A DNA stretch of 64,000 nucleotides from contig CP021232.1 in assembly GCA_003999685.1 (NCBI GenBank), forward strand, positions 1 to 64,000, written 5' to 3'. How positions within the stretch are numbered: the stretch's first letter is position 1; every line of letters begins with the position of its first letter. Source of the stretch: Taiwanofungus camphoratus (taxonomy: Eukaryota > Basidiomycota > Agaricomycetes > Polyporales > Taiwanofungaceae). The translations under genes and the position numbers were made by a program. The notes under the pieces are model-generated. The model saw only the letters and a program-made list of their open reading frames with translations, was not told the DNA's origin and did not search any database. This document shows, piece by piece, positions 1 to 42,532 of the stretch.

Positions 1-64
1 AACCTAACCTAACCTAACCTAACCTAACCTAACCTAACCTAACCTAACCTAACCTAACCTAACT
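1..64. repeat. Terminal telomeric tract, 5-nt repeat (CCTAA/TTAGG)
   Basis: Perfect tandem AACCT units run from base 1 until they join element DNA at 65. Read from the end inward this strand is the C-rich one, so the G-rich strand is TTAGG with its 3' end at the window's left edge, as at a real left chromosome end. The unit is one G shorter than the TTAGGG usual in fungi. The tract may be longer than the window shows. Confidence 0.9.
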
Positions 65-371
65 GACGAGGGCTGGGTTTGGACTGGGCGGTACCTGAAG
101 AAACCCAACGGATTCATCGAAGCGGAGAAGGTCCCTGACCTTTCCCAACTCGGGTTCTTAGACAAGCGCTGGCTTGTGTCGCGTAAAAGGGAAACCAATT
201 TCGCTGACTTAGCAAGCAAATGGCGCAGAAGTGTAATTAATGCCCAAAGTACAGATGATGTACTATTGGAAATGGACATATAAATCGGTTGATTCGATTT
301 GTTTAGCTTAAGGTTATTGGTGTAACTACCTTTTGCGTTTATTCGCACTTAGGGTTGTCTGTTCAAACCAG
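65..371 (+). mobile_element. 5'-truncated 3' end of family A Penelope-like element, capped by telomere
   Basis: Bases 65-283 encode the last 72 residues or so of the family A reverse-transcriptase ORF (stop TAA at 281-283), followed by its 3' untranslated region. The segment is identical to 4744-5050, offset by exactly 4,679 bases. Its 5' break abuts telomere repeats directly. This is what incomplete reverse transcription at a chromosome end, followed by telomere healing, would leave. A broken copy joined by recombination is the alternative. It is not expected to make protein. Confidence 0.88.
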
Positions 372-452
372 ACCTAACCTAACCCTAACCTAACCTAACC
401 TAACCTAACCTAACCTAACCTAACGCTAAATCCTAACCTAACCTAACCTAAC
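372..452. repeat. Interstitial telomeric repeats at 3' end of family A unit (copy 1)
   Basis: Tandem CCTAA units with one CCCTAA variant and a degenerate stretch AACGCTAAATCC. The same variants in the same order recur at 5051-5131, and a near-identical one (AACGCTAATCC) occurs in the family B tracts. The tract is therefore inherited with the element and was not added afresh each time. Confidence 0.88.
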
Positions 453-1102
453 TGAAGGCGCTATCGCGCCTTCTCCATTTGGTAGTTTTGGGAAATAAGA
501 CGCTCGTCACGTGACTTGCCCGAAAGGGCCGGACATGTGATCAGCATCCAGGCACGGACCGGTTGAGCCGCGAGGCTGGACTGGCCTGGGCACTACCTAG
601 TTATGGTCACCAGCGCCCCTCTGCTGTGTTAGTCCATGATCCGGTGATCTGTGAGGTGTAACATGCTATGGCACGGTGCGGCAACTTGCCGGACGCGGTC
701 CTAGTGAATATCCCGCCCCCGCCCCGCATGGCTCGGTGAGGGTGTTCCTAGGGATCCTCAGGTTTGTGCCGTGACATGATGCTTCCTCAGTGGTCCACGC
801 TGCCCTTATCTAGGCGCCCGGAAGTCGGACCGGTCATGTGACTCGGTCGGCACCGGCCCGGATTGTTCTATTCCCACCCTTATCACCCTAACCGATGATA
901 AGGGATCTCTTATCTATGAGTCATCTTAAATGACTCCTTATCTTTACATCTGATTATTATCTCTGATCAGGTGGCGGTATTGGTAAAGGCTAGGGCGTTC
1001 TAGCCTGCCTTTTGTCGGCCCGCTGATAAGAGATAAGAGAAATAGCTCTAATGTGATTGGAGCTCACCACTACCTCATGGCCTGGTTGGTCAAATAGAAT
1101 CA

Positions 1103-1150
1103 GTCATCGGCCTCCGGCCGATGACTCAGGGTCAATCATCTGATGACCCT
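1103..1150 (+). promoter_or_regulatory. Tandem RNA hairpins upstream of hammerhead A1
   Basis: GTCATCGGCC (1103-1112) pairs with GGCCGATGAC (1116-1125) over a TCC loop. AGGGTCA (1128-1134) pairs with TGACCCT (1144-1150). Both hairpins recur before the other family A hammerheads, and a comparable pair precedes family B hammerheads. After self-cleavage they would sit near the 3' end of the upstream RNA, so a role in RT recognition is possible (inference). Confidence 0.7.
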
Positions 1151-1171
1151 GAACCATCGGTTAAAAGTACG

Positions 1172-1242
1172 ACGAGAGTACTGATGAGCTCCTTAGCGAA
1201 ACAAGTTGGTATCTGGCAACAGATACCTTTGTTTACTCTTGT
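1172..1242 (+). ncRNA. Type I hammerhead ribozyme, family A copy A1
   Basis: Core CTGATGA (1181-1187) and GAAA (1198-1201). Stem II is GCT/AGC with loop CCTT. Stem III is CAAG/TTTG continuing into an 8-bp helix (GGTATCTG/CAGATACC) closed by the GNRA loop GCAA. Stem I is ACGAGAGTA (1172-1180) with TACTCTTGT (1234-1242), 9 pairs with one G-U. Predicted cleavage follows U1233. Stem I is open, as in PLE hammerheads. Confidence 0.9.
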
Positions 1243-1458
1243 CTTCTCTATTTTTCTCATCTCTTACTACGCTCGCCCGCCTATCGGCGGTCTCGCTCCA
1301 CCTCCTAACCTAACCAACACCGCCGCCAAGCTGTCTCTCTACATCCGCCACCGCAAGCCCCTTACCTGGTGCACGACTGTCGGTATCTTCTGCGACGACT
1401 GCAATCGATTCTACAAGCCCAAGTCTGAGTCGATCTACTATCGTCCCCCGCCGTTCGC

Positions 1459-2551
1459 ATGGCTCCACCTTCCACACCCCGTTCTTCTTCCGTCGGTCCC
1501 GGGTCTGCCTCACTTAGGTCTGCAATTGCCCGGAATCTTGCCCCCGCGAGCTTATCGTACGCTATCGGGGCGGCATCGCTTGAGACTGTTGCCGATGAGT
1601 TCCGAGCCATTTTTCACGCAGAGACCATTGACCAAGTCTTCTCAGCTATACCTCTCGTCTATCGAGAGGTGCTCCGTCCGGTGCTGGTTAGCGTTGCGGA
1701 AGCGAAGGAACGTTCTGTTTCTTTGCAGAAGCAATTGGGTGACCTTGAGTCGCACAAAGCTAACGGTTCGCTCCCCCACCAGTTACAGGGGCTCAGCGAA
1801 CCCGTCTTCCAGAGCTCAAAACTCTGGCTCGAGACGTCGCCGGCGGAGCCCGCAGCTCTGATAACCGAGTTCCAATCCTTCCGTCGGAAGGCTCTTGACT
1901 TGGCCATCGCCCAAAAGCGAGCAGAGCTCGCGTTCTTTGATCGCGCATTAGACCCGACAGCAATGTTGGAGAAAATGCGGACAGTGGTTGACGAACAGTG
2001 GGCGCGCATTAGCCAGTCTAGTCGCGTTCCTGTTTGGAGGGAAACTATCGACGGCGGTCAACGCTTAGATACGTGGACCAATGACCCTGTCCTCGAGTCT
2101 GAGTACAAGCGATTCGTCGCTGTGCTCCCACGCTTTGCCTTCCGGGTAGTTAATATCCGTGAATCACAACTGGCACAAGCCGCGGCTCGAGCGCAAGCAA
2201 AGTCTGCCGTCAAGGCTGCAGCGGAGGTCGAGATGGGTGACGCCACCGAGAACCCTGCAGCTTTGAAAAAGCTGATCGATGATGCGGTTGATCGTCGTCT
2301 CAAAGGCGAAGGCAGCTCAAAGAACGCGGTAAGTTTTGTACATGGTTCTGTTCCAAAAAGCTTACCAGGCGCCGCTCTATCACGTATTTTAGGGAGCAAA
2401 GGCAAAGGCGCCAAAACGATCGGTGCGCATGAGTACGGGAGGACGCCCTCCCAAACCTCCGCAGCGCAAGGCCAAGCAGCAGCAGGCCGCTTCCTCTGCG
2501 AAGAAGCAGAAGAAGACCAAAGATCGGAAAGGCAAAGGGAGAGCGAAATAA
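1459..2551 (+). CDS. Alternative spliced ORF1-like product of family A PLE
   Basis: If the 64-nt segment 2329-2392 (GTAAGT donor, TATTTTAG acceptor) is spliced, the frame shifts and ends at TAA 2549-2551, giving about 342 residues. The new tail is very Lys/Arg/Gln-rich, such as AKKQKKTKDRKGKGRAK, like a nuclear-localisation or nucleic-acid-binding tail. In the unspliced frame the same bases give an unremarkable sequence, which argues that the shifted frame is a selected one. The preceding residues are Ala/Lys-rich and probably helical. PLEs are known to tolerate introns. No transcript evidence is available, so this is an inference from sequence. Confidence 0.5.
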
Positions 2552-4962
2552 TTCGGTCAGTTATTCGCTCGCGACTCCGTTTCTCCCAGCCGTCGTCTTA
2601 TCCAGACAGTATCCTAATGTTACCCTTGCCAGTTGCAGCTCGCACCCTCCTTTATTTCGCTCCGGTTGCTTTAGTCGAAGCGGCGAGGTTCAGAAGCTGG
2701 GTGCATTGTGGCGAGGACGTTATACTACCGCCGGACATTAGCATACACATATCTTGCGGTTTGAAATATATGTTGTACTCCCCCCCGAGCGGGGAACTCA
2801 TTCAAACAGCGTTCGATGATTTCTGTGAACGAATACGCTGGCGAGTGTATTTTAAAGTTAAACAGATTCAACTCGAACGGCAAGGTATAAGCCAACCACC
2901 TTATGATCCAGACTACGACCTTAGGGCTAAGCGGGACTCGTCCGCCCCTAGGGCCACACAATATATCGAAAACGGTCTTAAACGCGGGCAAACATACGTC
3001 ACTGATTACATACGTAGTGTCGTACCCGGTTTGAAAGCTAGAAGCCACCCTAATCGGCTTGTAGACCTGGACCGTGTTCGCCTCTGGTTGAACGAGCATA
3101 ACTACCTCGTTCTCCAAACGGACAAGAATCTCGGTGCGGCAGTAGTCACAAGGGAATGGTTCATTAATGGTTGCATGAATCTTCTGTCAAATACGGCTGA
3201 CTATCAGGAAATTAATCCCGGTCAGCGACAGATGTATTTAGAAAAAGTTACAAAGCGGGTTAAGGAGTTAAGCGATTGGGTCGAAGGGGCTTTGCCTAAC
3301 GATCAGACACTCCAATTAGCCAAATTCCTCCGGTCAAAATGTCCCGAGAGCGAGTTAGAGGAACCAAAGGTGCCTATCTTTTACGGGATCCCAAAAATCC
3401 ATAAATCCCCAGTAAAGATGCGACCTATTGTTCCATGTCACTCATGCGCTCAAGGGCCCGCGGCTAAAGTTGTATCTAAACTGTTGAAACCTATTATCGA
3501 GGCTGAGTCCTTTATTATACACGGATCAAAACATCTTGCGATCCAGTTAGCAAAGGTCAAAACGTTAAAATGGAAAAAGTATTGGTTAGTGGCTGGCGAC
3601 GTTGTCGCTTTCTACCCAAATGTACCACTCAGAGATTGTGTTGGCATTGTGTCCAAATTGTACACAAGACATCCTCTGGGTAGTCAGTCTATGGACCAGC
3701 CCCAGTTTTATAATGCGCTGTTTATCAGGTGCATGCAAACAGCCAATTACGATTTAATAGTCGACTTCAACGGTCGTACTTACTTTCAAAAACGAGGACT
3801 AGCTATGGGTGTGGCGTGTTCGCCTGACTTAGCTAATCTCTATGGATGCCATTTTGAAAATCAAGTATGGCCCGGTGGACAGGTTACTCCACCGTTCCTA
3901 TATTATGGTCGATACATTGATGATGTATTCGCCATAGTTGAAGCAGGTAGTGCGGCAGAAGCTTTAGAAGCCTGCCAAAGCCGTATATCTTATGATGGCT
4001 GCACTATAACATGGGAAGTGTCTGAATGGGCGACGCCATTCCTTGACATGCTTATTTATATAGACCCCGTTTCTAACCGGGTGGAACATAAGCCATATCG
4101 GAAAGCACTTAACCATCATGAACGAATTCCATGGGTATCTCACCACCCGAAGGATGTGAAAAAAGGCACATTCATTGGGGAGATGAGCCGTTTAGCTACG
4201 CTAAGTTCTAAGTTGGAACACTACCTAGATGCCCTTCATGGGCTTGTCGACCTGTATGTCGGCCGTGGCTATCCCCCTGCTCTGGTTACTTCTTGGCTTG
4301 ATTCGCATAAAGCGGTACGCTGGAAAGAACGTCTTGGAAAACCAAAATCTTCGACCGAAGATGCAGACCAAGTTGAGGGCGTACTTGCGATTAAGTCGAA
4401 GTTCAACCCCTCATGGGATCAGTTCGATGTTCATGAATTAATGACACGTGTTACGGAATCGTGGGTGAAGGATTTATCTTTCTTTAAGTCCTTCTTTTCG
4501 GCGAGTTGGGAAAACTCGGCCGCTCCGATCTTTGAGTATTCGTCTGGGGGTCCTAAGGATGCGACCCTATCCAGCACAGTTCAGACCACGCTTGAGGAGT
4601 GGTGGGATCCCGCCCGAGTAGCCCAGCGCAAGCTGTCGCGCGAAACGGCGGCTGCGGAAGCAGCAGCAGAACTCGCCGCCGCTGAAGCCAGGCGGTCCGA
4701 TCAAATCTCGAAACCGGTGGCAGTTGTCCATGACAACCGCGCGGACGAGGGCTGGGTTTGGACTGGGCGGTACCTGAAGAAACCCAACGGATTCATCGAA
4801 GCGGAGAAGGTCCCTGACCTTTCCCAACTCGGGTTCTTAGACAAGCGCTGGCTTGTGTCGCGTAAAAGGGAAACCAATTTCGCTGACTTAGCAAGCAAAT
4901 GGCGCAGAAGTGTAATTAATGCCCAAAGTACAGATGATGTACTATTGGAAATGGACATATAA
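1459..4962 (+). CDS. Endonuclease-deficient Penelope-like reverse transcriptase (Coprina/Athena type), full ORF
   Basis: An uninterrupted 1,167-codon frame. The RT domain occupies roughly residues 590-960: motif A with D714 in GDVVAFYPN, a motif B region AMGVACSPDLANLYG, and catalytic YIDD at 819-822. No GIY-YIG nuclease follows; the C-terminus is an Ala-rich stretch and a basic tail. Endonuclease-lacking PLEs of rotifers and basidiomycetes are known to sit at telomeres and use the chromosome end as primer, and the flanking CCTAA tracts fit that. A candidate intron (2329-2392) would remove the link between an N-terminal ORF1-like region and the RT. The start is the first ATG after the pLTR. 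A second possible RT start is ATG 2617 (residue 387). The copy looks intact. Confidence 0.9.
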   Translation: MAPPSTPRSSSVGPGSASLRSAIARNLAPASLSYAIGAASLETVADEFRAIFHAETIDQVFSAIPLVYREVLRPVLVSVAEAKERSVSLQKQLGDLESHKANGSLPHQLQGLSEPVFQSSKLWLETSPAEPAALITEFQSFRRKALDLAIAQKRAELAFFDRALDPTAMLEKMRTVVDEQWARISQSSRVPVWRETIDGGQRLDTWTNDPVLESEYKRFVAVLPRFAFRVVNIRESQLAQAAARAQAKSAVKAAAEVEMGDATENPAALKKLIDDAVDRRLKGEGSSKNAVSFVHGSVPKSLPGAALSRILGSKGKGAKTIGAHEYGRTPSQTSAAQGQAAAGRFLCEEAEEDQRSERQRESEIIRSVIRSRLRFSQPSSYPDSILMLPLPVAARTLLYFAPVALVEAARFRSWVHCGEDVILPPDISIHISCGLKYMLYSPPSGELIQTAFDDFCERIRWRVYFKVKQIQLERQGISQPPYDPDYDLRAKRDSSAPRATQYIENGLKRGQTYVTDYIRSVVPGLKARSHPNRLVDLDRVRLWLNEHNYLVLQTDKNLGAAVVTREWFINGCMNLLSNTADYQEINPGQRQMYLEKVTKRVKELSDWVEGALPNDQTLQLAKFLRSKCPESELEEPKVPIFYGIPKIHKSPVKMRPIVPCHSCAQGPAAKVVSKLLKPIIEAESFIIHGSKHLAIQLAKVKTLKWKKYWLVAGDVVAFYPNVPLRDCVGIVSKLYTRHPLGSQSMDQPQFYNALFIRCMQTANYDLIVDFNGRTYFQKRGLAMGVACSPDLANLYGCHFENQVWPGGQVTPPFLYYGRYIDDVFAIVEAGSAAEALEACQSRISYDGCTITWEVSEWATPFLDMLIYIDPVSNRVEHKPYRKALNHHERIPWVSHHPKDVKKGTFIGEMSRLATLSSKLEHYLDALHGLVDLYVGRGYPPALVTSWLDSHKAVRWKERLGKPKSSTEDADQVEGVLAIKSKFNPSWDQFDVHELMTRVTESWVKDLSFFKSFFSASWENSAAPIFEYSSGGPKDATLSSTVQTTLEEWWDPARVAQRKLSRETAAAEAAAELAAAEARRSDQISKPVAVVHDNRADEGWVWTGRYLKKPNGFIEAEKVPDLSQLGFLDKRWLVSRKRETNFADLASKWRRSVINAQSTDDVLLEMDI

Positions 4963-5131
4963 ATCGGTTGATTCGATTTGTTTAGCTTAAGGTTATTGGT
5001 GTAACTACCTTTTGCGTTTATTCGCACTTAGGGTTGTCTGTTCAAACCAGACCTAACCTAACCCTAACCTAACCTAACCTAACCTAACCTAACCTAACCT
5101 AACGCTAAATCCTAACCTAACCTAACCTAAC
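4963..5131 (+). mobile_element. 3' untranslated region and telomere-like tail of family A PLE
   Basis: An 88-nt untranslated segment leads into a CCTAA tract (5051-5131) with the same internal variants as the tract at 372-452. In the sense RNA this tail is complementary to the G-rich telomeric overhang, which would allow annealing and target priming at chromosome ends (inference from the known behaviour of telomere-associated PLEs). Confidence 0.8.
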
Positions 5132-5990
5132 TGAAGGCGCTATCGCGCCTTCTCCATTTGGTAGTTTTGGGAAATAAGACGCTCGTCACGTGACTTGCCC
5201 GAAAGGGCCGGACATGTGATCAGCATCCAGGCACGGACCGGTTGAGCCGCGAGGCTGGACTGGCCTGGGCACTACCTAGTTATGGTCACCAGCGCCCCTC
5301 TGCTGTGTTAGTCCATGATCCGGTGATCTGTGAGGTGTAACATGCTATGGCACGGTGCGGCAACTTGCCGGACGCGGTCCTAGTGAATATCCCGCCCCCG
5401 CCCCGCATGGCTCGGTGAGGGTGTTCCTAGGGATCCTCAGGTTTGTGCCGTGACATGATGCTTCCTCAGTGGTCCACGCTGCCCTTATCTAGGCGCCCGG
5501 AAGTCGGACCGGTCATGTGACTCGGTCGGCACCGGCCCGGATTGTTCTATTCCCACCCTTATCACCCTAACCGATGATAAGGGATCTCTTATCTATGAGT
5601 CATCTTAAATGACTCCTTATCTTTACATCTGATTATTATCTCTGATCAGGTGGCGGTATTGGTAAAGGCTAGGGCGTTCTAGCCTGCCTTTTGTCGGCCC
5701 GCTGATAAGAGATAAGAGAAATAGCTCTAATGTGATTGGAGCTCACCACTACCTCATGGCCTGGTTGGTCAAATAGAATCAGTCATCGGCCTCCGGCCGA
5801 TGACTCAGGGTCAATCATCTGATGACCCTGAACCATCGGTTAAAAGTACGACGAGAGTACTGATGAGCTCCTTAGCGAAACAAGTTGGTATCTGGCAACA
5901 GATACCTTTGTTTACTCTTGTCTTCTCTATTTTTCTCATCTCTTACTACGCTCGCCCGCCTATCGGCGGTCTCGCTCCACCTCCTAACCT
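5132..5990 (+). mobile_element. Pseudo-LTR of family A PLE, copy A2
   Basis: Same sequence as 453-1311 at an offset of 4,679. It follows the complete RT unit and ends in a longer telomeric tract starting at 5983. With A1 it brackets the full ORF, the usual PLE layout of partial tandem dimers. It carries hairpins equivalent to those in A1 and the hammerhead A2. Confidence 0.82.
5851..5921 (+). ncRNA. Type I hammerhead ribozyme, family A copy A2
   Basis: Identical to the A1 ribozyme. Cleavage is predicted after U5912. Together with A1 it would release an RNA of 4,679 nt (1234-5912) holding the whole RT gene, the telomere-like tail and most of a pLTR. Confidence 0.9.
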
Positions 5991-6086
5991 AACCTAACCT
6001 AACCTAACCTAACCTAACCTAACCTAACCTAACCTAACCTAACCTAACCTAACCTAACGCTAATCCTAACCTAACCTAACCTAACC
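5983..6086. repeat. Interstitial telomeric tract joining PLE families A and B
   Basis: About 100 bp of CCTAA units separate pLTR A2 from pLTR B1. The inner part has the AACGCTAATCC variant typical of family B tails, so the tract is probably telomere DNA fused to a B-derived tail. Confidence 0.85.
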
Positions 6087-6948
6087 GCCGGACTTTCCCA
6101 GTCCTGCGCTTAGGGTTGCCTAAAAATAGATAGGCGCCTTACGTGTCACGTGATATGTTCGGCACTTAGTACGGACCGGCCCTTCATTGCGGCCCGGTGC
6201 GCGCCGTTCCCGCATGCTAGCGGAGCGCGCGTTAACTACTATGGTCCCCAGCGCCCCTCTGCTGTGTTAGTCCATGATCTGGTGATCTGTGGGTTGTAAC
6301 ATGCTAGAGCACGGTGCGGCAACTTGCTGGACGCGGTCCTATTGAGTATCCTTCCCCCGCCCCGCATGGCTCGGACAGGGTGCTCACGGGGATTCCCAGG
6401 TTTGTGCCATGACATGATGCTTCCTCAGTGGTCCACGCTGCCCTTAGTAGACGCCCGGAAAGCGGCCCGGTCACATGATCGGCTCGGCACCGGCTATGTT
6501 GTTCCTATCTATGTCCGGCCCGGATTAACCTCCGGCCCGGACTTCCTATCTTTTATCTCGGATCTTAAGCCTAGGCTCTCGATCCGGATTCTAATCTTAA
6601 TCAGATGACTCTGACATCTGATCAGTAATGGTGTCTAGGCGAATCTAGACAATGATGATTGCTTATCGCTGACTGATTAGGATAGGAGGGAGAGACGTGA
6701 TTCGCTCCCACCTGCAACCCTCTGCCCTGGTACGGTCAAACTGACTTAGTCACCGGCCCCCGGGCCCTGACTCAACCATAAGCGTGACTTTGGTTGAACT
6801 TGGTTATAAGCGACGCTAGTGCTCTGATGAGACTTAGTCGAAATTAGCCGTCCGATAGCGATATCGGGCTAATTAGTACTAGCTTCCTCTAAGCCTCCTT
6901 CTTTCCTGCCCTGCACTCGCAGCCCTTGTAGTGTTGATACATAGACCT
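6087..6948 (+). mobile_element. Pseudo-LTR of family B PLE, copy B1
   Basis: About 860 bp, closely similar to 8902-9775. It shares short blocks with family A pLTRs (for example around 6240-6440 and 280-480 bp into the A repeat) but is clearly diverged elsewhere. It ends with a GTCA...TGAC hairpin, a TCAACC/GGTTGA hairpin and hammerhead B1. Confidence 0.8.
6815..6883 (+). ncRNA. Type I hammerhead ribozyme, family B copy B1
   Basis: Core CTGATGA (6824-6830) and GAAA (6840-6843). Stem II is GAC/GTC over loop TTA. Stem III is TTAGC/GCTAA plus CCGATA/TATCGG capped by GCGA, a GNRA loop. Stem I is GCTAGTGCT (6815-6823) with AGTACTAGC (6875-6883), 9 pairs including one G-U. Predicted cleavage follows U6874. 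Confidence 0.92.
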
Positions 6949-6989
6949 CCTAACCTAACCTAACCTAACCTAACCTAACCTAACCCTAA
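6949..6989. repeat. Interstitial telomeric repeats at truncation point of PLE B
   Basis: Eight or so CCTAA units sit exactly at the 5' break of the B reverse-transcriptase fragment, repeating the arrangement at the chromosome terminus (1-65). Confidence 0.85.
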
Positions 6990-8711
6990 GAAAAGGTTAC
7001 TAAGCGGGTTAAGGAGTTAAGCGATTGGGTCGAAGGGGCTTTGCCTCATGATCAGACACTCCAGTTAGCCAAATTTCTTCGGTCAAAATGTCCCGAGAGC
7101 GAGTTGGATGAGCCAAAGGTTCCCATCTTCTATGGTATCCCAAAAATCCATAAGACACCGGTGAAGATGCGGCCTATTGTGCCCTGTCACTCATGCGCTC
7201 AAGGCCCCGCGGCTAAAGTAGTATCCAAGTTGTTGAAACCTATCATAGAGGCTGAACCCTTTATTATACATGGTAGCAAAGATCTTGCAGCCAAGTTAGC
7301 AACGGTTAAAACACTAAAATATAAAAAGTATTGGCTTGTGGCCGGCGACGTTGTCGCTTTCTACCCCAATGTACCTCTCAGAGAATGCGTAGGCATTGTA
7401 TCTAAATTGTACATTAGTCATCCATTGGGTAGTCAATCAACGGACCACCCCGAATTTTACAACGCCTTGTTTATTCGGTGTATGCAATCAGCCAATTACG
7501 ATCTAATAGTTGACTTCAACGGTCACACATTCCTTCAAAAGCGTGGGTTAGCAATGGGAGTGGCTTGTTCGCCCGACCTTGCTAATCTATATGGATGCCA
7601 TTTTGAAAATAAAGTCTGGCCTTCTGGGCAGGTTAGCCCACCCTTTCTTTATTATGGACGGTACATCGATGATGTATTCGCTATCGTTGAAGCAGGTAGT
7701 GCAGCAGAGGCTCTCGAACTCTGTACCAGTCGTATCTCTTACACTGGCTGTACTATAACATGGGAAGTGTCAGAATGGGCAACGCCGTTCCTTGACATGC
7801 TTATTTATATTGACCCCGTAACCAACCGGGTGGAACATAAGCCGTATCGGAAAGCACTTAACCATCATGAAAGAATACCATGGATATCTCACCACCCAAA
7901 GGACGTTAAAAAAGGCACGTTCATTGGGGAGATGAGCCGTTTGGCCACGCTAAGTTCTAAGTTGGAACATTACTTAGATGCTCTTAAAGGGCTTGTCGAT
8001 TTGTACGTCGGCCGTGGCTATCCCCCTGCTCTGGTTGTCGCATGGCTTGATTCACATAAAGCAGTACGCTGGGCGAAACGTTTGGAAACTAAACAAACTT
8101 CGACCAAAACGGCGGACGCGAATGATGGCGTACTTGTAATTAAGTCGCAATTTAACCCTTCATGGGATTCTTTCGATATTCATGAATTAATGACACGAGT
8201 CACTGGATCGTGGGTGGAGTCTTTGAGCTTCTTCAAAAACTTCTTTTCGGCGAGTTGGGAAAACTCGGCCGCTCCGATCTTCGATTATTCGGCTGGGGGT
8301 TCGCGGGATGCGACCCTATCCGGCACAGTTCAGACCACGCTTGAGGAGTGGTGGGATCCCGCCCGAGTAGCCCAGCGAAAGCTGTCGCGCGAAACGGCGG
8401 CTGCCTCGGCAGCAGCAGATCGTGCCGCCGCTGAAGCCCGGCGGTCTGATCAAATCTCGACACTGGCGGCGGTTGTCCATGATAACCGCGCAGACGAGGG
8501 CTGGGTATGGACTGGGCGGTACCTAAGGAAACCCACCGGATTTATTGAGGCGGAGAAGGTCCCTGATCTTTCCCAACTCGGATTCTTAGACAAGCGCTGG
8601 CTTGTGTCTCGAAAGCGGGAAACCAATTTCGCAGACCTAGCAAGTAAATGGCGCAGAAGTGTTATTAATGCCCAAAGTGCGGATGACGTACTTCTGGAAA
8701 TGGATATTTAA
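6990..8711 (+). pseudogene. 5'-truncated Penelope-like reverse transcriptase, family B
   Basis: An open frame runs from the telomere junction at 6990 to the stop at 8709-8711, corresponding to family A residues from about 595 onward. It keeps the whole RT core: GDVVAFYPNVP, AMGVACSPDLANLYG, YIDDVFAI. It has the same nuclease-free C-terminus and is very similar to the A protein with many silent differences. It lacks the N-terminal half and its own start, so it is probably a dead copy, although the frame has stayed open. It is younger than its divergence from A suggests, because pLTRs B1 and B2 are nearly alike. Confidence 0.88.
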
Positions 8712-8901
8712 ACTGTTAAGTCAGTTTGATTAGCATCGGTTACATCAGGTGTAACGTTATCTTAGTGTGTTGGTGTATTAGGGTTGTCTGTTCAAACCAG
8801 ACCTAACCTAACCCTAACCTAACCTAACCTAACCTAACCGAACCTAACCTAACCTAACCTAACCTAACCTAACGCTAATCCTAACCTAACCTAACCTAAC
8901 C
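8712..8901 (+). mobile_element. 3' untranslated region and telomere-like tail of PLE B
   Basis: An 89-nt untranslated stretch ends in GGGTTGTCTGTTCAAACCAG, also present before the A tails, then CCTAA repeats (8801-8901) with the AACGCTAATCC variant. The conserved motif just ahead of the repeats in both families may be part of an RNA recognition site (inference). Confidence 0.78.
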
Positions 8902-9775
8902 GCCGGACTTACCCAGTCCTGCGCTTAGGGTTGCCTTAAAATAGATAGGCGCCTTACGTGTCACGTGATATGTTCGGCACTTAGTACGGACCGGCCCTTC
9001 ACTGCGGCCCGGTGCGCGCCGTTCCCGCATGCTAGCGGAGCGCGCGTTAACTACTATGGTCCCTAGCGCCCCTCTGCTGTGTTAGTCCATGATCTGGTGA
9101 TCTGTGGGTTGTAACATGCTAGAGCACGGTGCGGCAACTTGCTGGACGCGGTCCTGATGAGTATCCTTCCCCCGCCCCGCATGGCTCGGACAGGGTGCTC
9201 CCGGGGATTCCCAGGTTTGTGCCATGACATGATGCTTCCTCAGTGGTCCACGCTACCCTTAGTAGACGCCCGGAAAAGCGGCCCGGTCACATGATCGGTG
9301 CGGCACCGGCTAAGCTGTTTCTATCTATACCCGGCCCGGATTAACCTCCGGCCCGGGCTTCCTATCTGTTATCTCGGATCTTGAGCCTAGGCTTGAGGTC
9401 CGGATTCTTATCTTAATCAGATGACTCTGACATCTGATCAGTAATGGTGTCTAGGCGAATCTAGACAATGTTGATTCCTCAGCGCTGATTGATTAGGATA
9501 GGAGCGAGAGACGTGATTCGCTCGCACCTGCAACCCTTTGCCCTGGTTCAGTCAAACTGACTTAGTCATCGGCCCCCGGGCCATGACTCAACCATAAGCA
9601 TGACTTTGGTTGAACTCGGTTAAAATCGACAGCTAGTGCTCTGATGAGACTTAGTCGAAATTAGCTGCCCGCCCCCCCATAGGCGAGCTAATTAGTACTA
9701 GCTTCCTCTAAGTCCTCCTTTCAAGCCCGTATCGCACTCGCAGCACCTGCGGCGCTGCTCGCTCCACCTCCTAAC
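8902..9775 (+). mobile_element. Pseudo-LTR of family B PLE, copy B2
   Basis: Closely matches 6087-6948 with scattered substitutions and small indels. It ends in CCTCCTAACC, where it is fused directly to a family A pLTR fragment without a telomere array. Confidence 0.8.
9632..9702 (+). ncRNA. Type I hammerhead ribozyme, family B copy B2
   Basis: CTGATGA 9641-9647, GAAA 9657-9660, stem II GAC/GTC, stem III TTAGCT/AGCTAA with an inner CGCC/GGCG helix, and stem I GCTAGTGCT (9632-9640) with AGTACTAGC (9694-9702). The stem III tip differs from B1 but stays paired. Confidence 0.9.
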
Positions 9776-10443
9776 CCGGTGATCTGTGAGGTGTAACATG
9801 CTATGGCACGGTGCGGCAACTTGCCGGACATGGTCCTAGTGGATATCCCGCCCCCGCCCCGCATGGCTCGGTGAGGGTGTCCCTAGGGATCCTCAGGTTT
9901 GTGCCAGACATGATGCTTCCACAGTGGTTCACGCTGCCCTTATCTAGGCGCCCGGGAACCAGACCGGTCACGTGACTCGGTCGGCACCGGCCCGGATTGT
10001 TCTATTCCCATCCTGTCATTTTAACCGATGATAAGGGATCTCTTATCTCTGAGTCATCTTAAATGACTCCTTATCTTCACATCTGATTGTTATCTCTGAT
10101 CAGGTGGCGGTATTGGTAAGGCTAGGGCGTTCTAGCCTGGTCCTTTGTCGACCCCGTTGATAAGGGATAAGCGAATGGCTCCAATGTGATTGGAGCTCGT
10201 CCTACCTCATGGCCTGGTTGGTCAAATTGAATCAGTCATCGGCCGGAGGCCGATGACTCAGGGTCAAGTCACTTGACAACCCTGAACCTCGGTTATAAAG
10301 TACGACAAGAGTACTGATGAGCTCTTTAGCGAAACAAGTGGGTGTCTAGCGATAGATACCATTGTTTACTCTTGTCTTCTCTACCTTTCTCATCTCTTAC
10401 TACGCTCGCCCGCCTATCAGCGGTCTCGCTCCACCTCCTAACC
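9776..10443 (+). mobile_element. Orphan family A pLTR fragment, copy A3
   Basis: Matches pLTR A1 from about base 641 to its end with several per cent divergence. The first hairpin is GTCATCGGCC/GGCCGATGAC (10235-10257), now with loop GGA. It is followed by a 100-residue ORF where the RT gene would be expected. Confidence 0.78.
10305..10375 (+). ncRNA. Type I hammerhead ribozyme, copy A3
   Basis: CTGATGA 10314-10320 and GAAA at 10331-10334. Stem I is ACAAGAGTA (10305-10313) with TACTCTTGT (10367-10375), fully Watson-Crick, compared with one G-U in A1 and A2. Stem II is GCT/AGC over CTTT. Confidence 0.9.
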
Positions 10444-10445
10444 AG

Positions 10446-10748
10446 GATGAGCTCCAATGGTGGATCTTTTCACTTCCCGGAGGGGGTTTTCTATGATGCT
10501 CTTCGATTCTGTCTACTCAGAATTGCCAAAATCTCGTTAGAAAGTCACTTCCCGGACCTGACTGGAATAGAATACCCTATTCCAGACAGCATATATATAG
10601 GACCGGAAAACCTCAAACGTGAGGACCTGGCTACGAGAGATAGTAGTGAGGCTTTATGGACACTGCGTATGTCCTTTCTGGGCGAAGTCGATAGAGTCGA
10701 GCGAGTACTCAAGTACAAAGCGAGAGGTCGCAAGATACGAGTATAAGA
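10446..10748 (+). CDS. Small unrecognised ORF in orphan hammerhead module
   Basis: An ATG three bases after the pLTR end opens a 100-residue frame. I recognise no family. Charged and hydrophobic residues alternate as in a folded protein, and the C-terminus is basic (YKARGRKIRV). Bases 10488-10602 have a diverged second copy at 11209-11318, so the sequence belongs to a repeated element. Its place directly after a hammerhead pLTR mirrors that of the RT gene in family A. It could instead be a chance ORF in a non-autonomous element. No RT motifs are present. Confidence 0.4.
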
Positions 10749-10757
10749 TTGCTAGTG

Positions 10758-11140
10758 GTAACTAGCTACTTGGTAATCAGATCGAACTTAAGGTCCGACC
10801 TACAAAGTACAGGGCCTTATATACGTATTCTACTCTGCGCACGGACCATGGCACGTGGTCTAAGAATCAGCATGAGTAAGCATAAGTAAGGCGATATGAG
10901 TCATCGGGCCGTATTAGCAATCAGTAAGCGTAAGACAGAATGTGTAAGCGGGGCCCGATATGAGTTAATGTCTATGAGTAACCGGGGCCCGTCCAGGGCC
11001 CGTACCATAAGCAGCGATGAGTCAAGGCGCTGCACGAAGAAGCTGGGCCTACCCGAGGCCCGTTCTAGAAGTGAAAGGTCATGAGACCGATCCAAGGTCC
11101 GACCGATAAGATATGCAATGAAAGAAATTGTATCACACAA
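10758..11140. repeat. Dispersed subtelomeric repeat D, CpG-rich copy
   Basis: About 380 bp with a relative at 63,315-63,690 in the same orientation. It contains several GGGCCCG-type palindromes spaced 30-50 bp apart. Most differences from the other copy are CpG here against TpG or CpA there. I see no coding capacity. Confidence 0.75.
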
Positions 11141-11208
11141 TGTCCATGCCCGGGAACAGGCAATGGAGTGAGATAATTGGACATCTATGGAGTTCCCAGA
11201 TAGGTTAT

Positions 11209-11318
11209 TGATGATGCTCTTCGATTCTGTCTACTCAGAATTGTCAAAAAGGAATGGGAAAGCTTGTTCCTGGACCAAACTGGATTAGGGGGTCCTAATC
11301 CAGACAGCATATATATAG
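11209..11318 (+). repeat. Second copy of the small-ORF segment
   Basis: Aligns with 10488-10602, including the shared end ATCCAGACAGCATATATATA. It is diverged and shorter in the middle and no longer carries the same reading frame. Directly followed by a B-type ribozyme module. Confidence 0.65.
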
Positions 11319-11472
11319 GTTATAAGTGACGCTAGTGCTCTGATGAGACTTAGTCGAAATTAGCCGTCCGATAGCAATATCGGGCTAATTAGTACTAGCT
11401 TCCACTAAGCCTCTTTTCTTTCATACAGTCCTGCACCAGCAGCACGTTCCGTGCTGCTGTCTCCTCCTCCTA
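11319..11472 (+). mobile_element. Orphan family B pLTR 3' fragment, copy B3
   Basis: Corresponds to the last 150 bp of pLTR B1 from the TTATAAG before the ribozyme onward. The junctions on both sides are abrupt, with no telomeric repeats. Confidence 0.72.
11331..11399 (+). ncRNA. Type I hammerhead ribozyme, copy B3
   Basis: Stem I is GCTAGTGCT (11331-11339) with AGTACTAGC (11391-11399). Core CTGATGA 11340-11346 and GAAA follow, with stem II GAC/GTC. Stem III is like B1 but with loop GCAA in place of GCGA, so the GNRA loop is kept although the sequence changed. Confidence 0.91.
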
Positions 11473-11703
11473 TCTCATGGCCTGGTTGGTCAAATTGAAT
11501 CAGTCATCGGTCGGAGACCGATGACTCAGGGTCAGTCACTTGACGACCCTGAACCTCGGTTATAAGTACGATGAAAGTACTGATGAGCTCTTTAGCGAAA
11601 CAAGTTGGTGTCTAGCGATAGATACCTTTGTTTACTCTTGTCCTTCACTATCTATCTCATCTCTTACTACGCTCACCCGCCTACCGGCGGTCTCGCTCCA
11701 CCA
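11473..11703 (+). mobile_element. Orphan family A pLTR 3' fragment, copy A4
   Basis: Corresponds to pLTR A1 from about base 1073 to its end. The first hairpin reads GTCATCGGTC/GACCGATGAC (11503-11525), a compensatory C-G to T-A change relative to A1. It is followed by the last short CCTAA tract of the window. Confidence 0.75.
11571..11641 (+). ncRNA. Type I hammerhead ribozyme, copy A4 (one stem I mismatch)
   Basis: CTGATGA 11580-11586 and GAAA at 11597-11600. Stem III has an 8-bp inner helix. Stem I ATGAAAGTA (11571-11579) pairs with TACTCTTGT (11633-11641) with one A-C mismatch and two G-U pairs, so this is the most decayed of the seven and may be weaker. Confidence 0.82.
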
Positions 11704-11718
11704 CCTAACCTAACCTAA
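11704..11718. repeat. Innermost telomeric repeat, centromere-side end of PLE array
   Basis: Three CCTAA units end the pLTR A4 fragment and mark the inner edge of the PLE stack. Beyond it the sequence changes character. Confidence 0.75.
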
Positions 11719-11748
11719 GTCTGGATTGATGGTGCTTATATAAGAGGC

Positions 11749-12655
11749 AGCTGGAACAGCAAACTAGCCAATCACTGGGTGAGATCATGCTTATGTTATC
11801 AGAAACACCAACTCATTGAGTTGTTGAGTGAGTTACTTGCTCGTGCTCATCTTATGTGCCACACTGTCAGGAGACAAGCGGCATGGCAGCGGTTCTATGC
11901 GGACCGACACTTAGATCCCGAAATGACCACAGCCCTGGGTGAAAAATACCATGATTTCTGTGAGTGGTATGACACTGAAGCAAAGGCATTTGAACTATAC
12001 CATAATTGGGTAGACGAGGGGATAGCAGAACCTAATCTCTGTGATGATCCCCCTGTCTACCTGAACGATAACTGAGGCCTGAAACCTGTAAGGCCAAACT
12101 CAGTCCATAGGGTGAAATACTGACGGAACGGGATCACCAGGCCGGGTAAACACACAGAGCATGAAAAACGGGTCGGGCGGAGGTTGGATATGGCTTCCTT
12201 TGGATGACTATACCCTTCCTTTTGCAGGCCTTGTTGGATTGTATGCCCACACCATATAACGAGGCCACCAAAACCTGTAGGTGTGCCGCTCATGTGGGCG
12301 CGGATGCCCACTTACTATCATTATTACTCTACATGTACCTACGCCATATGGAGTATAATAAACCCGGTGAATATAAAAAATTTAAAAAAAAAGAGTGAGT
12401 TACTCGACTCAACTCGGATGTCTGAGTTTGTGAACTCGGCATGCGAGCCGAGTCGAGTTCCGAGTTCAACTCGACTCGACCGCACTAACTGGCACAACAT
12501 TGGCTGGAACAGCAAACTAGCCAATCACTGGGTGAGATCATGCTTATGTTATCAGAAACACCAACTCGTCGAGTTGTCGAGCGAGTTACTCGACTCAGAT
12601 GTCCGAGTTCCGAGTTCGACTCGACTCCACCGCAACACTAGATATCAGATTGGCT
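11749..12655. repeat. Duplicated blocks and TCGAG/ACTCG-rich repeat
   Basis: About 66 bp at 11,750-11,815 (AACAGCAAACTAGCCAATCA...) recur at 12,504-12,569. A second module dense in ACTCG/CGAGT is present at about 12,395-12,490 and again at 12,565-12,650. The left copy of the first block has ATTGAGTTGTTGAGTGAG where the right copy has CpG. Between 12,076 and 12,390 I see no gene. Confidence 0.6.
11779..12075 (+). CDS. Hypothetical 98-residue ORF, possibly partial
   Basis: No family recognised. The first 25 residues fall in a segment repeated at 12,501-12,570, so the true start may be later (M at about residue 27, LMCHTVRR). The remainder is rich in Trp, Tyr, Asp and Glu (FCEWYDTEAKAFELYHNW) and looks like real or recently real coding sequence. 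A TATATAAG box lies at about 11,737-11,744. It could be the remnant of a subtelomeric gene. Confidence 0.35.
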   Translation: MRSCLCYQKHQLIELLSELLARAHLMCHTVRRQAAWQRFYADRHLDPEMTTALGEKYHDFCEWYDTEAKAFELYHNWVDEGIAEPNLCDDPPVYLNDN

Positions 12656-12704
12656 GTAACTGTTATTCTCCCACCATTGCATACTTCTGCAATCAAGAAT
12701 AATC

Positions 12705-13184
12705 ATGACCTCGGTAACGATAACGGCGATTGCAGCGGCCTCGACCACAGTTCCAGTAACCTCCACTCGCCCACCTATCGTCGAGATCCTCCGCGTTCTA
12801 TCCACCTTCGCCTCTTTTGTCGTCTCCTCGGTCACTGCCTTCTCTCTTGCCTTTGCCCGTGCACTTGCAGCACCCCTTACTGCGCTATATCATCTTCTTC
12901 AATACGTACTGGCTCCTGTCACCCTCTTCTGCCATATTGTCATCGACACTTTTGTTCGAACGCCTTATTCTCTCCTTGTATCTATCCTACAGAACCTATA
13001 CCCGATATATGTCTTCATTGGCGTAACATGTATTACTGCAGCTTTCGTGGGACTTGGCGCTCGCATTGTTGCCCAGACCATTCAACATGCTCTCTCTCCA
13101 GTGTCTCCTCGTGGCTCTGCAGATACCGAGTCTGCATTATCAAAGGCGCGCAGGAGGGTATCAATCAAGGAAGACAGGATCTGA
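12705..13184 (+). CDS. Small multi-pass membrane protein, unknown function
   Basis: 159 residues from the first ATG, no introns. After a Ser/Thr-rich N-terminus there are three or more hydrophobic stretches: about residues 28-60, 62-85 and 90-122, the last ending in an Ala/Gly-rich helix (FIGVTCITAAFVGLGARIVA). A polar, basic cytoplasmic-type tail follows. Small proteins of this layout are common and uncharacterised in Agaricomycetes. No enzymatic motif is visible. It is the first convincing host gene inward of the subtelomeric repeats. Confidence 0.65.
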   Translation: MTSVTITAIAAASTTVPVTSTRPPIVEILRVLSTFASFVVSSVTAFSLAFARALAAPLTALYHLLQYVLAPVTLFCHIVIDTFVRTPYSLLVSILQNLYPIYVFIGVTCITAAFVGLGARIVAQTIQHALSPVSPRGSADTESALSKARRRVSIKEDRI

Positions 13185-15688
13185 AAGATGTGACTTACCT
13201 GGTGACCCCCGAAAGCATGCCGTCTCTACTATGTGAGTTCCCTTAAGGTGTTTTCTCAGTCTATAGCTTCTGAAAGAGATTGCTATAGCACTGCCCAATC
13301 AATTTCGTTATTTTTGTGCTTGCGTGGATTTGTTCATGCATGTTCAAGTACACTGCCTCATGCTCTCTCCTAGCATCAAACATCTTCCGGTGTTCTCCAA
13401 GTTCTTAGGGTCCACTCTCATATTCCATTCAGGAGTATCGAGTCGGTGTCGTGTCTCGATGATTCCCTGCCCCTATAATGCGCATTGGGCTAATTACAAT
13501 TCTTCAACCGCAATGTCTTCTTGGCGTGCTTCTCTGCATTGTGCCTTGAAAATCCAGCTCTCCCGTTATAACCTGTCAAAGCACCGTTCTCGTTGTCGTA
13601 TTTACGGGGCTCTGTTTACTAGTCTTGACATTATCCGTCATTTTATACTCAAGCAAATGCCAAATGACTTGTAATGGAGATGGTTGTACGTAGGTTGGAT
13701 GTCCACACACAACACCGCCATTGTTTAAACAGTCCTCACGCGATATTTGTTCTCAAGGAAACTACCGGTGTAGTCAAATCAAAACGACAATCCCTACCAT
13801 GTATGTGCGCATTTGTCCCACGTCTAGGCAATTATTATCTCGTCCTGGGAGTCTAGTAAGCCCCATGCACCAATGTCCCATTCCTTTGCAGCAGGAGTGA
13901 CTCAACAATGTAGTGACAGTACACGTCTATACTGCTGCACCATGCTGCATTGCAATGCAGTCGTCCAATGCCTTAGATTTTCCACTCAAGCGTTGACGGG
14001 AATAGTCAATGGTACGTCTTCCGAGAAGCCTATCGGAAAGTCTCATAAAGTTCTACTCGTTCCTCAACATTGGTCTCGTTGCTTCCCTATTCATATCAAG
14101 CGCATCACACGATTATCTTCCCGGTGATTGGCCTCTAATCTTGAGAGGTTGTCTCAAACTCCACAACGATGTTATCTGCTCATCCAACACTTGGGGGAAG
14201 TCTCGTATATGCATACATTGGTAGCGTGAGTTTTGAGATCTGCCGCAACCGACTTTGTATTCATCAAATTTTCGTCAGAAGTGGGCCGGTCATAAAGGCG
14301 TTCTTCGGCGAGAATATTTCGAGTGAAGTATATTAGTAAACTTATAAGCAGGCTTTTTTAGAACATATCTCGAAAATTCGAGTCCGTGTTACATATGTAC
14401 GGTGGAGGCCATAACCTATATTTGCCATTGAGTTGCCCCTGACAAGTGCAATAGGTGAAGGTGACCGTCGAAAGACCCAAGGTAGGCGGGCAACACAAAG
14501 GTAACACCTATTTCTTACTACGTGAGCTTCGCATCTCGGTTAGCATAACTCGAAGTACGCAGCACCGGAGTCAATCTTCCATTTGTCTACATTGAAAATA
14601 GTATCGTTAACGTGATCAAAGGTGTTCTTACAGCGCTTGAGGGAGATCCCCACTTAATCATTCCGGTTTGCAGCTTCATCAAATCCATAGCTACGACATG
14701 CCTTCTTGCTTCATCGTGACCCCAACAAGCCATATACTGTTCTGAAGAAACAACATCCAAGGAATCCGGGGCACCAATGCTGCAGCATTGCAGCGAATGC
14801 CAATTTCCATACGTTGTCTTTTGAAGCCCGGAGCCTGCCAGATTCAAGTAGGATCATGCGGAAACTCGAAAATCGATATATGTCACCAAGCTAGATAGAT
14901 GATGTTTTCAGTCCTCTCTGTTGACACATCCTAACAACCCACTCCCCGACCGCCGACCATCGGATGGTTACGAGGACAGGCGCGTACAATGCCGATCCTG
15001 AGGCGTAGTGAGGCGAAGGTATTAGCTGCTGCAATCTTAACGGTGTTTTTGACTGCACTCACACTCAGACTTTCAAAGCGAACGCACTGGGCTGAAACTA
15101 ATAATGGCCCACTGCATTGACTTGTTCGTTAGTCTTTGATAACTGCAAATAGTACATGGTAGCATTGATAATCTCTGTCTTCGTGGCATACGGTTCAGAG
15201 AAGGAGGCTGCAATAATCTGTTAGAACTTTCTTTTCAATCATCTGCGCGACCTTCCGGAAGCATACACAGAACGTAATTAGGGTCGGCGCTGCTCATGGA
15301 AAGGGTCCATACGGAGATTGTTACATACACTGGCAGTGGTCTTCCCTTCAGCCGTTAGGGCGCGATGAATACACCAAGACCGATGTCCTTCAAGAATTCT
15401 GTGTTCCCGACGAGAACAAGGTTGGTACCCGAACAGCAGACGACGTGAGTCCGATATAACCCTGACGCTTCGAAACTATGATGGGACCCTGTTCATAGAG
15501 ATGGCGTGATTTACTACTTCAACGACTATTTTGGCCTGCATCATCTAGGATATAGCACAAAAATATTATTGGTGAGAACCGTAACTCTTAGATATACTGA
15601 TATCAGCTAAGATTCAAAGTAGACGGTTGCAGAACTTGTCGAAAATACAAAATATGAGATATGGCCGTTCGGCGGACAACAAATGTGC
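13185..15688. other. 2.5 kb without a supportable gene
   Basis: Only short overlapping ORFs occur. A minus-strand stretch at 14,587-14,847 (AMDLMKLQTGMIKWG and similar) and fragments at 15,300-15,420 have some coding flavour and could be exons of a decayed gene, but I cannot assign a family or join them with confidence. Confidence 0.5.
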
Positions 15689-34806: not shown

Positions 34807-35298
34807 TGAAACAATTTCTATTTCTTATCATTACCACGGTCATTGCTTACACATGGACTATTACTGTACGGGCCCCGGATCGGCCCCGCTTATGCATAGG
34901 ACTCTGACTCATATCCGGGCCGCTTACCACATTCCTCATCACTCATACGTATTGCTAAATACGCCCGGATCGTACCACTTTGTATTTATCTATAGTCGTA
35001 CCACATTTCGGACCTCCTGCCCTAGAGTAGTTCTTGGTCCGTGCTCACGATACGTACTTGTATATATAGCATGTATTTAGCTTAGCTCAGACCTTAAGTC
35101 TGATCTTGTTACCATTAGTCTTGTTACCATTATATTCGTGTCTTGTATCCTCTCGCTCGCATTTGAGTGATACTCGCTCGAGTCTACAGACTTCACGACA
35201 CTTGGTCTATATCGACCATAAGACCTCGCCACCTTCCATCGTGGTCAGGCCCTCGTCCTTGAGGCAACGCATAGGATCCAAGATACCAATTTGTATCA
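34807..35298 (+). repeat. 5' LTR of the Ty3/gypsy element
   Basis: 492 bp, matching the 3' LTR at about 98.5% by eye. It contains a TATATATAGCATG promoter-like box at about 35,052-35,064. Confidence 0.92.
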
Positions 35299-35445
35299 AA
35301 AGATCAGACTTACGCTAAGCCGCCCCTAGTACCATCTAGTGGGCATACATCCATTACCACGTCTTACCTCAGGACCGTCGATTCTGAGTATTGGGGGTTA
35401 CCTACACGAGGAGAGGAACCACTTCTCTACGACATCGAACAACGA

Positions 35446-36777: not shown

Positions 36778-36878
36778 AGGGGCAGGGTGAGTCGACGCAA
36801 CCACTGCCCATTTCAGTTTCACTGTCCCGTGTTGTACTAGTAGTCCGGAATGAAAGAGCCCTGCATATTCCGATTACT

Positions 36879-40658: not shown

Positions 40659-40700
40659 GACCAGTTCACTCCCTTCAGACGAACTACCCCCCACCACAAC

Positions 40701-42110: not shown

Positions 42111-42532
42111 AAGGGATTGCTTGCCGGAGGCGGCTAGTTGCAACTCAGCGAGAAAACACTGAGCCACATGCTAGCAGGGTACAGTGGAGTAACACTGTAC
42201 GGTGATGGTGAACAGTAGGGGTGCTGTTTGCTTGAGGCGGTAGGTTGCAAGCGGTGCTGGGTCCTTACCTGGCCGCCCACATGCCTACATTGCACGAGGC
42301 TTACACGATGTCGTGGGTCCTTACCCGGTCGCTGTCTGTCTTACACGGAACGAGATGAAACACTCTCAAGGTTCGAGATGAAACACTCTCAAGGTTCGAG
42401 GTGAAACACCCTCGTGGTTCGAGGTGAAACACCCTCACGATATGCAGTGAAACACCCGCACGGCTGACGAACATTTTATTTAACGGAAAATCAAGTAGAG
42501 TCGTTCGGAGATCGACCTTAGTAAGGGGGTAA

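Follow-up and report, generated by a model that had tools for sequence, protein, structure and literature searches.

The first 64,000 nucleotides of contig CP021232.1 of the wood-decaying polypore Taiwanofungus camphoratus (GenBank assembly GCA_003999685.1, positions 1 to 64,000 of the forward strand; hereafter the window) are the left end of contig C13 and carry an array of hammerhead ribozymes. They lie in the 3' parts of repeats (pseudo long terminal repeats, pLTRs) that belong to telomeric Penelope-like elements (PLEs), which fall into two families, A and B. Within 19 of 20 elements, the upstream and downstream repeats are separated by only 0 to 3 changes over 349-863 nt, and two elements continue past the upstream repeat into the open reading frame (ORF). 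The best explanation would be that the hammerhead defines a unit RNA, probably a circle, and that copying of this RNA onto chromosome ends runs for more than one turn, a reading to which a probability of about 0.4 is given on the strength of the sequences. That this is how an autonomous telomeric PLE replicates, through a circular RNA made by the hammerhead and copied for more than one turn by the element's own reverse transcriptase (RT), is proposed still more tentatively.

The units follow one plan, in a single orientation into the chromosome: repeat, joint, ORF, telomere tract, repeat. In family A (window copy at 1304-5983), a 12-nt joint, CCTAACCTAACC, is followed by an ORF unit of approximately 3736 nt encoding 1167 aa, then by an internal telomere tract of 79 nt and a repeat of 852 nt, which ends in the hammerhead, the cleavage site and a tail of approximately 70 nt before the telomere. 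Family B is built alike, its internal tract being 98 nt and its repeat 871 nt long. The distance between the two ribozymes of an element, one unit, is 4677-4680 nt in 12 A elements and 4742-4782 nt in 8 B elements. In the array sequence, the ORF is joined to the repeat of its own family at all 36 internal tracts (32 typed by a marker and 4 by reading the ORF end as family A), and a repeat tail of the same family with the fixed 12-mer precedes 23 of 23 ORF starts. Genome-wide, the joint plus ORF start gives 17 matches for family A and 14 for family B, the B pattern missing one B copy on C3 at 7296. The predicted protein matches RVT_1 with an E-value of 1.3e-6 and 28.7 bits, just below the Pfam cut-off of 29.6; no match to GIY-YIG up to an E-value of 10, to an RNase H-like domain or to a PDB entry was found. 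Its relatives are 36-50% identical (best 120 of 290 matches), those named among the matches listed coming from Fibroporia, Bondarzewia, Lentinula and Armillaria, and no RT relatives were found in prokaryote and virus contig collections, as is expected of such collections. Pseudo-LTRs are present and 5' truncations are capped by telomere repeats; judged by these features and the predicted protein, the elements are telomeric PLEs without detectable endonuclease. An intron-like sequence of 64 nt (GTAAGT...TTTTAG, window 2329-2392) lies inside the family A ORF, and a scan of the first 1500 nt revealed no counterpart in family B at the same position.

The first-pass annotation of this DNA described the array at one fungal telomere, but the two families are not a peculiarity of that telomere. 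The assembly comprises 33.2 Mb in 15 contigs, 14 of them nuclear, and the outermost non-telomeric sequence is an A or B element at all 28 ends of the nuclear contigs. The core pattern CTGATGAG-N6-9-CGAAA gives 201 matches genome-wide (109 + 92 on the two strands) versus 3 (2 + 1) for a reversed-pattern control, which, together with the absence of hits in 60 shuffles of the window, rules out a chance origin of the hammerheads. Among 100 places listed, from C1 to part of C8, 97 are close to a contig end, with plus-strand matches at left ends and minus-strand matches at right ends, and 3 are inside chromosomes, probably by chance. In 225,594 bases of array sequence, 114 cores are sense towards the centromere and 0 antisense. 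Telomere repeats begin 26 of the 28 ends; the left end of C4 and the right end of C5 begin inside a B element. Loss of telomerase in the host was considered and rejected, as two Telomerase_RBD matches (C6:759844-760231) indicate that the host encodes telomerase. The telomere unit is TTAGG, with 532 CCTAA versus 11 CCCTAA units in the first tract at 27 ends (the tract counted at the left end of C4 belongs to an element, and the right end of C5 has no tract). The published T. camphoratus genome, as reported, also has 14 chromosomes, with TTAGGG given as the telomere unit; the fungus is cultured, near-complete genomes of four monokaryons are described, and by word search Penelope is absent from the main text of that paper (PMC8865532).

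The comparison of repeats covers 20 elements (12 A, 8 B) in which both repeats are present; 3 of the 23 ORF starts have no downstream repeat in the data, and tandem copies on C10 were excluded. The two repeats are identical in 12 of the 20 pairs, over 349-856 nt. Cross pairs of B elements differ by 6.09% on average, with 0 of 56 identical, and those of A elements by 1.32%, with 38 of 132 identical; shuffled pairings were as good as the true one in 1 of 100,000 cases for B and 10 of 100,000 for A. The two elements that continue past the upstream repeat into the ORF do so at the left end of C13 (1250 nt) and the right end of C9 (1358 nt), and each extension is identical to its own downstream copy, the two being 22 mismatches and one gap apart. 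On account of the repeat identity within elements and these ORF extensions, the upstream repeat and the remainder of the element seem to share one template, as in long terminal repeat (LTR) elements but without a known LTR mechanism.

Where copies end was examined in 73 insertions that lie between telomere tracts and have a recognised tail (6 of 79 inter-tract stretches, without a tail, were left out). Seven are only 24-92 nt long; the start lies inside the repeat in 13 and, on a first pass, at the internal tract in 26 (851-878 nt). Another 10 begin within the ORF unit and have one ribozyme each. A further 13 are longer than one unit, measuring 5184 nt in one case, 5530-5635 nt in ten, and 5920 and 6029 nt in the last two. 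The remaining 4 are composite or contain other sequence. The ten insertions of 5530-5635 nt start again at the internal tract, on a second pass; the tract is thus an end point on both passes, which fits a role as telomere seed. Terminal erosion stopped at the telomere seed, or the formation of solo repeats, would also give the 26 short insertions. None of the 23 ORF starts represents a copy that begins at the first base of the ORF unit after a long telomere tract.

Insertions beginning at the first nucleotide after the cleavage site were predicted from cut RNA before the genome was searched. Two family B insertions, of 62 and 70 nt, start at this position, on C9 and C13, and they differ in telomere context and in B subtype; six insertions in total lie wholly in the tail. 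The arrays at the right ends of C9 and C13 entered the sample because of these hits. The two joints suggest, but do not prove, that cleavage occurs in the cell. The idea that full-length copies are templated by cut linear RNA was rejected, 0 of 23 ORF copies beginning at the upstream cleavage site.

Under the preferred reading, transcripts would be cut by the hammerhead into units of approximately 4.7 kb and rejoined, most likely as a circle. The G-strand overhang of the chromosome would anneal to the 12-nt joint sequence after the 3' product of the ribozyme, and the element's RT would copy leftward, passing the ribozyme, the repeat, the internal telomere tract and then the ORF, and in some cases completing 1.1 to 1.3 turns; a copied internal tract would be a ready telomere seed for the new chromosome end. 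Unligated cut RNA would give short run-off insertions beginning at the cleavage site. In this geometry, a cut at the downstream ribozyme would part the priming site from the ORF, so that only uncut or re-closed RNA could template the ORF, and the likeness of the repeats together with the second turns means that the template must offer the same sequence twice. A circle closed by the ribozyme would meet these demands with the fewest steps, strand transfer and concatemeric RNA being live rivals.

Several observations weigh against the copying of such a circle. One element on C4 (1798/6568) has unlike repeats, with 38 mismatches and 4 gaps. Tandem B ORFs spaced by one unit occur as a pair on C10, and the first two repeats there, the tails of which differ, show only 6 mismatches and one gap over 863 nt; thus a tandem source of near-identical units exists. 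The joints at the cleavage site are only two, come from a targeted search, and include an ambiguous A that could belong to either side; a genome pattern of the same kind detected no family A insertion starting at the cleavage site, and the probability of finding two at a single named position is P 0.002-0.035, depending on the tail-only insertions counted and the positions allowed. Nearly all insertions longer than the tail passed an intact cleavage site, for which a simple lack of cleavage gives the same result. In the four types tested, the hammerhead fold is less favourable than the predicted optimum, by 1.0 kcal/mol for A, 3.1 for the commonest B and 1.7 for each of the other two. The window contains no hit at the Rfam gathering score; at E-values up to 10 (positions 1-14000), three B copies match RAGATH-1-hammerhead with only 22.6-24.9 bits (E-values 1.8-5.5; cut-off 56.3). 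In an assay of a lizard PLE, hammerhead mutants were reported still to insert (PMC11167929). The spacing of ORF starts at C10:1731-29034 implies a tandem duplication of approximately 16.0 kb, of a B-A-B block, in which the tandem B ORFs share the middle repeat.

A concatemeric template without ribozyme function is unlikely but would be expected to leave the same end products, whether it were RNA read through from tandem units or transcribed from a DNA circle excised by recombination between the two repeats, or whether such a DNA circle underwent rolling copying by telomere recombination. The near-identical tandem pair on C10 speaks for it, recombination is visible at that duplication and in the C4 element, and repeat-only copies resemble solo repeats; however, C10 is the sole unit-spaced pair among the 31 ORF starts listed genome-wide, and DNA homology should start copies at the 79- and 98-nt tracts too, whereas 36 of 36 tracts are intact ORF-repeat joints. 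The absence of chimeras bears on retrovirus-like strand transfer, in which the upstream ribozyme would cut once, the RNA ends would share a direct repeat of approximately 91 nt (the ribozyme 3' product plus CCTAACCTAACC), and nascent complementary DNA would leave the 5' repeat for the 3' repeat on a sister RNA, so that the pLTR is copied twice. This scheme needs the ribozyme and yields near-identical repeats, a seamless ribozyme and the fixed 12-nt joint, but free choice of partner should yield A/B chimeras, of which there are none among 23 ORF starts and 36 internal tracts, and it sits poorly with a protein in which no RNase H-like domain was matched. Both counterpoints weaken if each particle holds RNA from a single source. 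Strand transfer is considered unlikely.

Recombination acts in the arrays, and gene conversion or later recombination might have made the two repeats of each element alike, but the full identity of 12 of the 20 pairs, and the running of identity into the ORF in both extended elements, make this very improbable. A hammerhead that is only a fold binding the RT and presenting the telomeric 3' end, or a device for 5' processing of messenger RNA, with no part for cleavage in copying, would agree with the passage of nearly all 201 core-bearing copies through an intact site, with the reported dispensability of the lizard PLE ribozyme in vitro (PMC11167929) and with the presenting role proposed for rotifer Terminons (PMC6431247); since it leaves the alike repeats, the second-turn copying and the two cleavage-site joints unexplained, it is regarded as improbable.

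The ribozymes themselves were dissected in 113 of the 114 motif-bearing copies (one copy on C7 could not be), and predicted cleavage follows UU in 112 of these and UA in 1. Because the search motif itself demands the core, intactness was counted from the 3' strands of stem I: an intact motif lies upstream of 42 of 43 such strands in family A and 71 of 74 in family B, the four without it consisting of one truncation inside the ribozyme, the two cleavage-site joints, and one copy in which the core is kept but the first pair of stem II is lost. Changes on both sides of a pair distinguish A from B at stem I pairs 1, 2, 4, 7 and 9, stem II pairs 2 and 3, and stem III pairs 1 and 2, and occur within B at stem III pairs 1, 5 and 6. 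The A and B repeats are 65% alike overall and 42-68% in blocks across the ribozyme; given this range and the compensatory changes, the fold is kept while its letters change. Stem III is interrupted, with 11-13 bp, and position 17 is U. Fungal and protist PLE ribozyme variants stable as monomers were reportedly described by Cervera and de la Pena in 2014, and the ribozyme variant itself may not be new. For the commonest B ribozyme (window 6815-6883; 46 of 71 dissected B copies), an alternative fold is predicted to be 3.1 kcal/mol better, with CUGAU of the core paired with AUUAG and the core thereby hidden, possibly an on/off switch. In both families, the sequence just before the ribozyme (window 1151-1166 and 6796-6809) forms a short hairpin, GAAC..GGTT, and continues with A(T/A)AA, which recalls the upstream part of Rfam RAGATH-1.

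In the window, seven type I hammerheads of two sequence families in a Penelope-like context at a fungal telomere, all on the plus strand, had been annotated in the first pass, and the cores (CTGATGA...GAAA at 1181, 5860, 6824, 9641, 10314, 11340 and 11580) lie where they were placed, with the strand, the families and the context borne out. Stem II has 3 bp, and cleavage is predicted after UU at the sites given below and, by offset, at 11632/11633 in the seventh copy. The GNRA tips of stem III are likewise present, as GCAA or GCGA, in all copies except that at 9632. The 9-bp stem I that had been described holds if G-U pairs are included, save in the seventh copy, which has one A-C mismatch, and the array runs to near 11718, not to 11641. 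It had been overlooked that the copies at 1172 and 5851 belong to the upstream and downstream repeats of one full-length A element, as had the 12-nt telomeric joint, the internal telomere tracts and, as the informative feature, the identity of the two repeats; that reading was partly supported, right in kind but too narrow in scope. A strict script (complete core, at least 3 pairs in stem II, at least 3 in stem III beyond A-U, at least 5 in stem I) detected only the first six copies on either strand of the window and nothing in 60 dinucleotide shuffles; the seventh (11571-11641) fails solely through its A-C pair in stem I. Fold z-scores are -3.2 to -4.5 for the six and -1.69 for the seventh. 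The covariance-model search that had been suggested as a check proved uninformative here: the curated cut-off was missed by the hammerhead copies, and at E-values up to 10 over positions 1-14000 one B copy also matches Hammerhead_3 (18.6 bits) and no A copy matches. These scores are at background, because three unrelated families match elsewhere with E-values of 4.2-7.8, so that membership of the type I hammerheads rests on the core, stems and covariation, which are present, and not on Rfam. The features of the array, all on the plus strand, are as follows.

1-62 (+): terminal telomere repeat (CCTAA)n, C-strand
65-371 (+): 3' end of family A ORF unit, second-turn start of element A1, identical to its own downstream copy
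373-451 (+): internal telomere tract of element A1, upstream copy, 79 nt
453-1304 (+): family A repeat (pLTR), upstream copy, identical to 5132-5983
1172-1242 (+): hammerhead A, upstream; predicted cleavage 1233/1234
1304-1315 (+): fixed 12-nt telomeric joint CCTAACCTAACC before the ORF unit
1459-4962 (+): PLE protein, 1167 aa, RVT_1 domain, no GIY-YIG match
5052-5130 (+): internal telomere tract of element A1, downstream copy
5132-5983 (+): family A repeat (pLTR), downstream copy
5851-5921 (+): hammerhead A, downstream; predicted cleavage 5912/5913
6087-6948 (+): lone family B repeat between telomere tracts
6815-6883 (+): hammerhead B; predicted cleavage 6874/6875
6990-8711 (+): family B PLE ORF, 5'-truncated
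8802-8899 (+): internal telomere tract of family B, 98 nt
8902-9772 (+): family B repeat (pLTR)
9632-9702 (+): hammerhead B, subtype without GNRA tip; predicted cleavage 9693/9694
9776-10437 (+): family A repeat, 5'-truncated
10305-10375 (+): hammerhead A variant; predicted cleavage 10366/10367
10440-11330 (+): stretch X, joined to a B-type hammerhead; no blastn match to A or B except at its end
11331-11399 (+): hammerhead B at the end of stretch X; predicted cleavage 11390/11391
11470-11702 (+): family A repeat, 5'-truncated
11571-11641 (+): hammerhead A variant, one stem I mismatch

In stretch X there are a hairpin and CATATATATAGG, and the stretch adjoins a B-type hammerhead both here and at a second place. 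Its interpretation as a family with its own repeats was dropped, and it is now read only as a degenerate fragment; it may possibly be a non-autonomous or third family. Elsewhere in the window, a Gypsy-type LTR element with a chromodomain occupies approximately 35100-42858, and a period-15 repeat, TCTTGTTACCATTAG, at 35104 and 42830 probably marks both of its ends. The 150-kb contig C15 has two equal-scoring atp6 matches (10787-11416 and 125994-126623) and is perhaps a mitochondrial circle assembled with an overlap. The atp6 protein, translated with the mitochondrial code, matches that of T. camphoratus at all 261 of 261 residues.

Beside Coprina, the fungal endonuclease-deficient telomeric PLEs, and Athena of rotifers, the features that may be distinctive here are the two families, the internal telomere tracts, the near-identical pLTRs flanking the ORF, and the hammerhead with a stable stem III. 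Fungal endonuclease-deficient telomeric PLEs and rotifer Athena are described as likewise telomere-associated, 5'-truncated and telomere-capped, with an RT lacking GIY-YIG, and the occurrence of PLEs at chromosome ends, in fungi of endonuclease-deficient ones only, is already in print (PMC3846280, PMC7473861). Hammerheads are also in print for telomeric Terminons of rotifers, which, as reported, resemble the present elements in a hammerhead near reverse-complement telomere repeats at the RNA 3' end and in head-to-tail telomeric arrays, but can exceed 40 kb and carry extra genes, in contrast to units of approximately 4.7 kb here (PMC6431247, PMC12477314). Type I hammerheads in PLE pLTRs are published as well; those of animals are reported usually to lack helix III, whereas here there is an interrupted stem III of 11-13 bp with a 3-bp stem II and U17 (PMC6155905, PMC7761336). 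Retrozymes similarly have two ribozymes one unit apart, able to release a unit RNA for circularisation, but are reported to be small and non-autonomous with measured circles, while the element here codes for its own RT and its circle is inferred (PMC4918200, PMC7229834, PMC7761336). Poseidon PAc of Anolis, as described, shares an RT start inside the RNA, a tandem or pLTR structure and a hammerhead at the pLTR-ORF joint, but differs in its GIY-YIG endonuclease, AT-rich targets, and a hammerhead that is protein-assisted and dispensable for insertion in vitro (PMC11167929). RAGATH-1-hammerhead (RF03152) has a near-identical CUGAUGAGACUU.G.CGAAA, a short stem II and a long stem III; it differs in that position 17 is U here, not C, and in the low bit scores given above. 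The family A and B elements are thus a further case of published hammerhead-bearing telomeric PLEs, and no report of repeat identity within elements or of second-turn copying in PLEs was found in the open-licence literature searched.

We know of no settled account of the origin of PLE pseudo-LTRs. In a 2020 review, the in vivo activity and role of PLE hammerheads are called a mystery (PMC7761336), and in a 2024 study one such hammerhead was reported not to be needed for insertion in vitro (PMC11167929). Dozens of young copies in a mushroom genome assembled from telomere to telomere allow a direct test of both the role of the ribozyme and the origin of the pseudo-LTRs, by asking whether a copy's two repeats come from a single template and whether the ribozyme closes that template into a circle. 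If true, the copying of circular RNA would explain the ribozyme and the pseudo-LTRs of PLEs by one mechanism, and the self-cutting RNA of these elements would gain a job.

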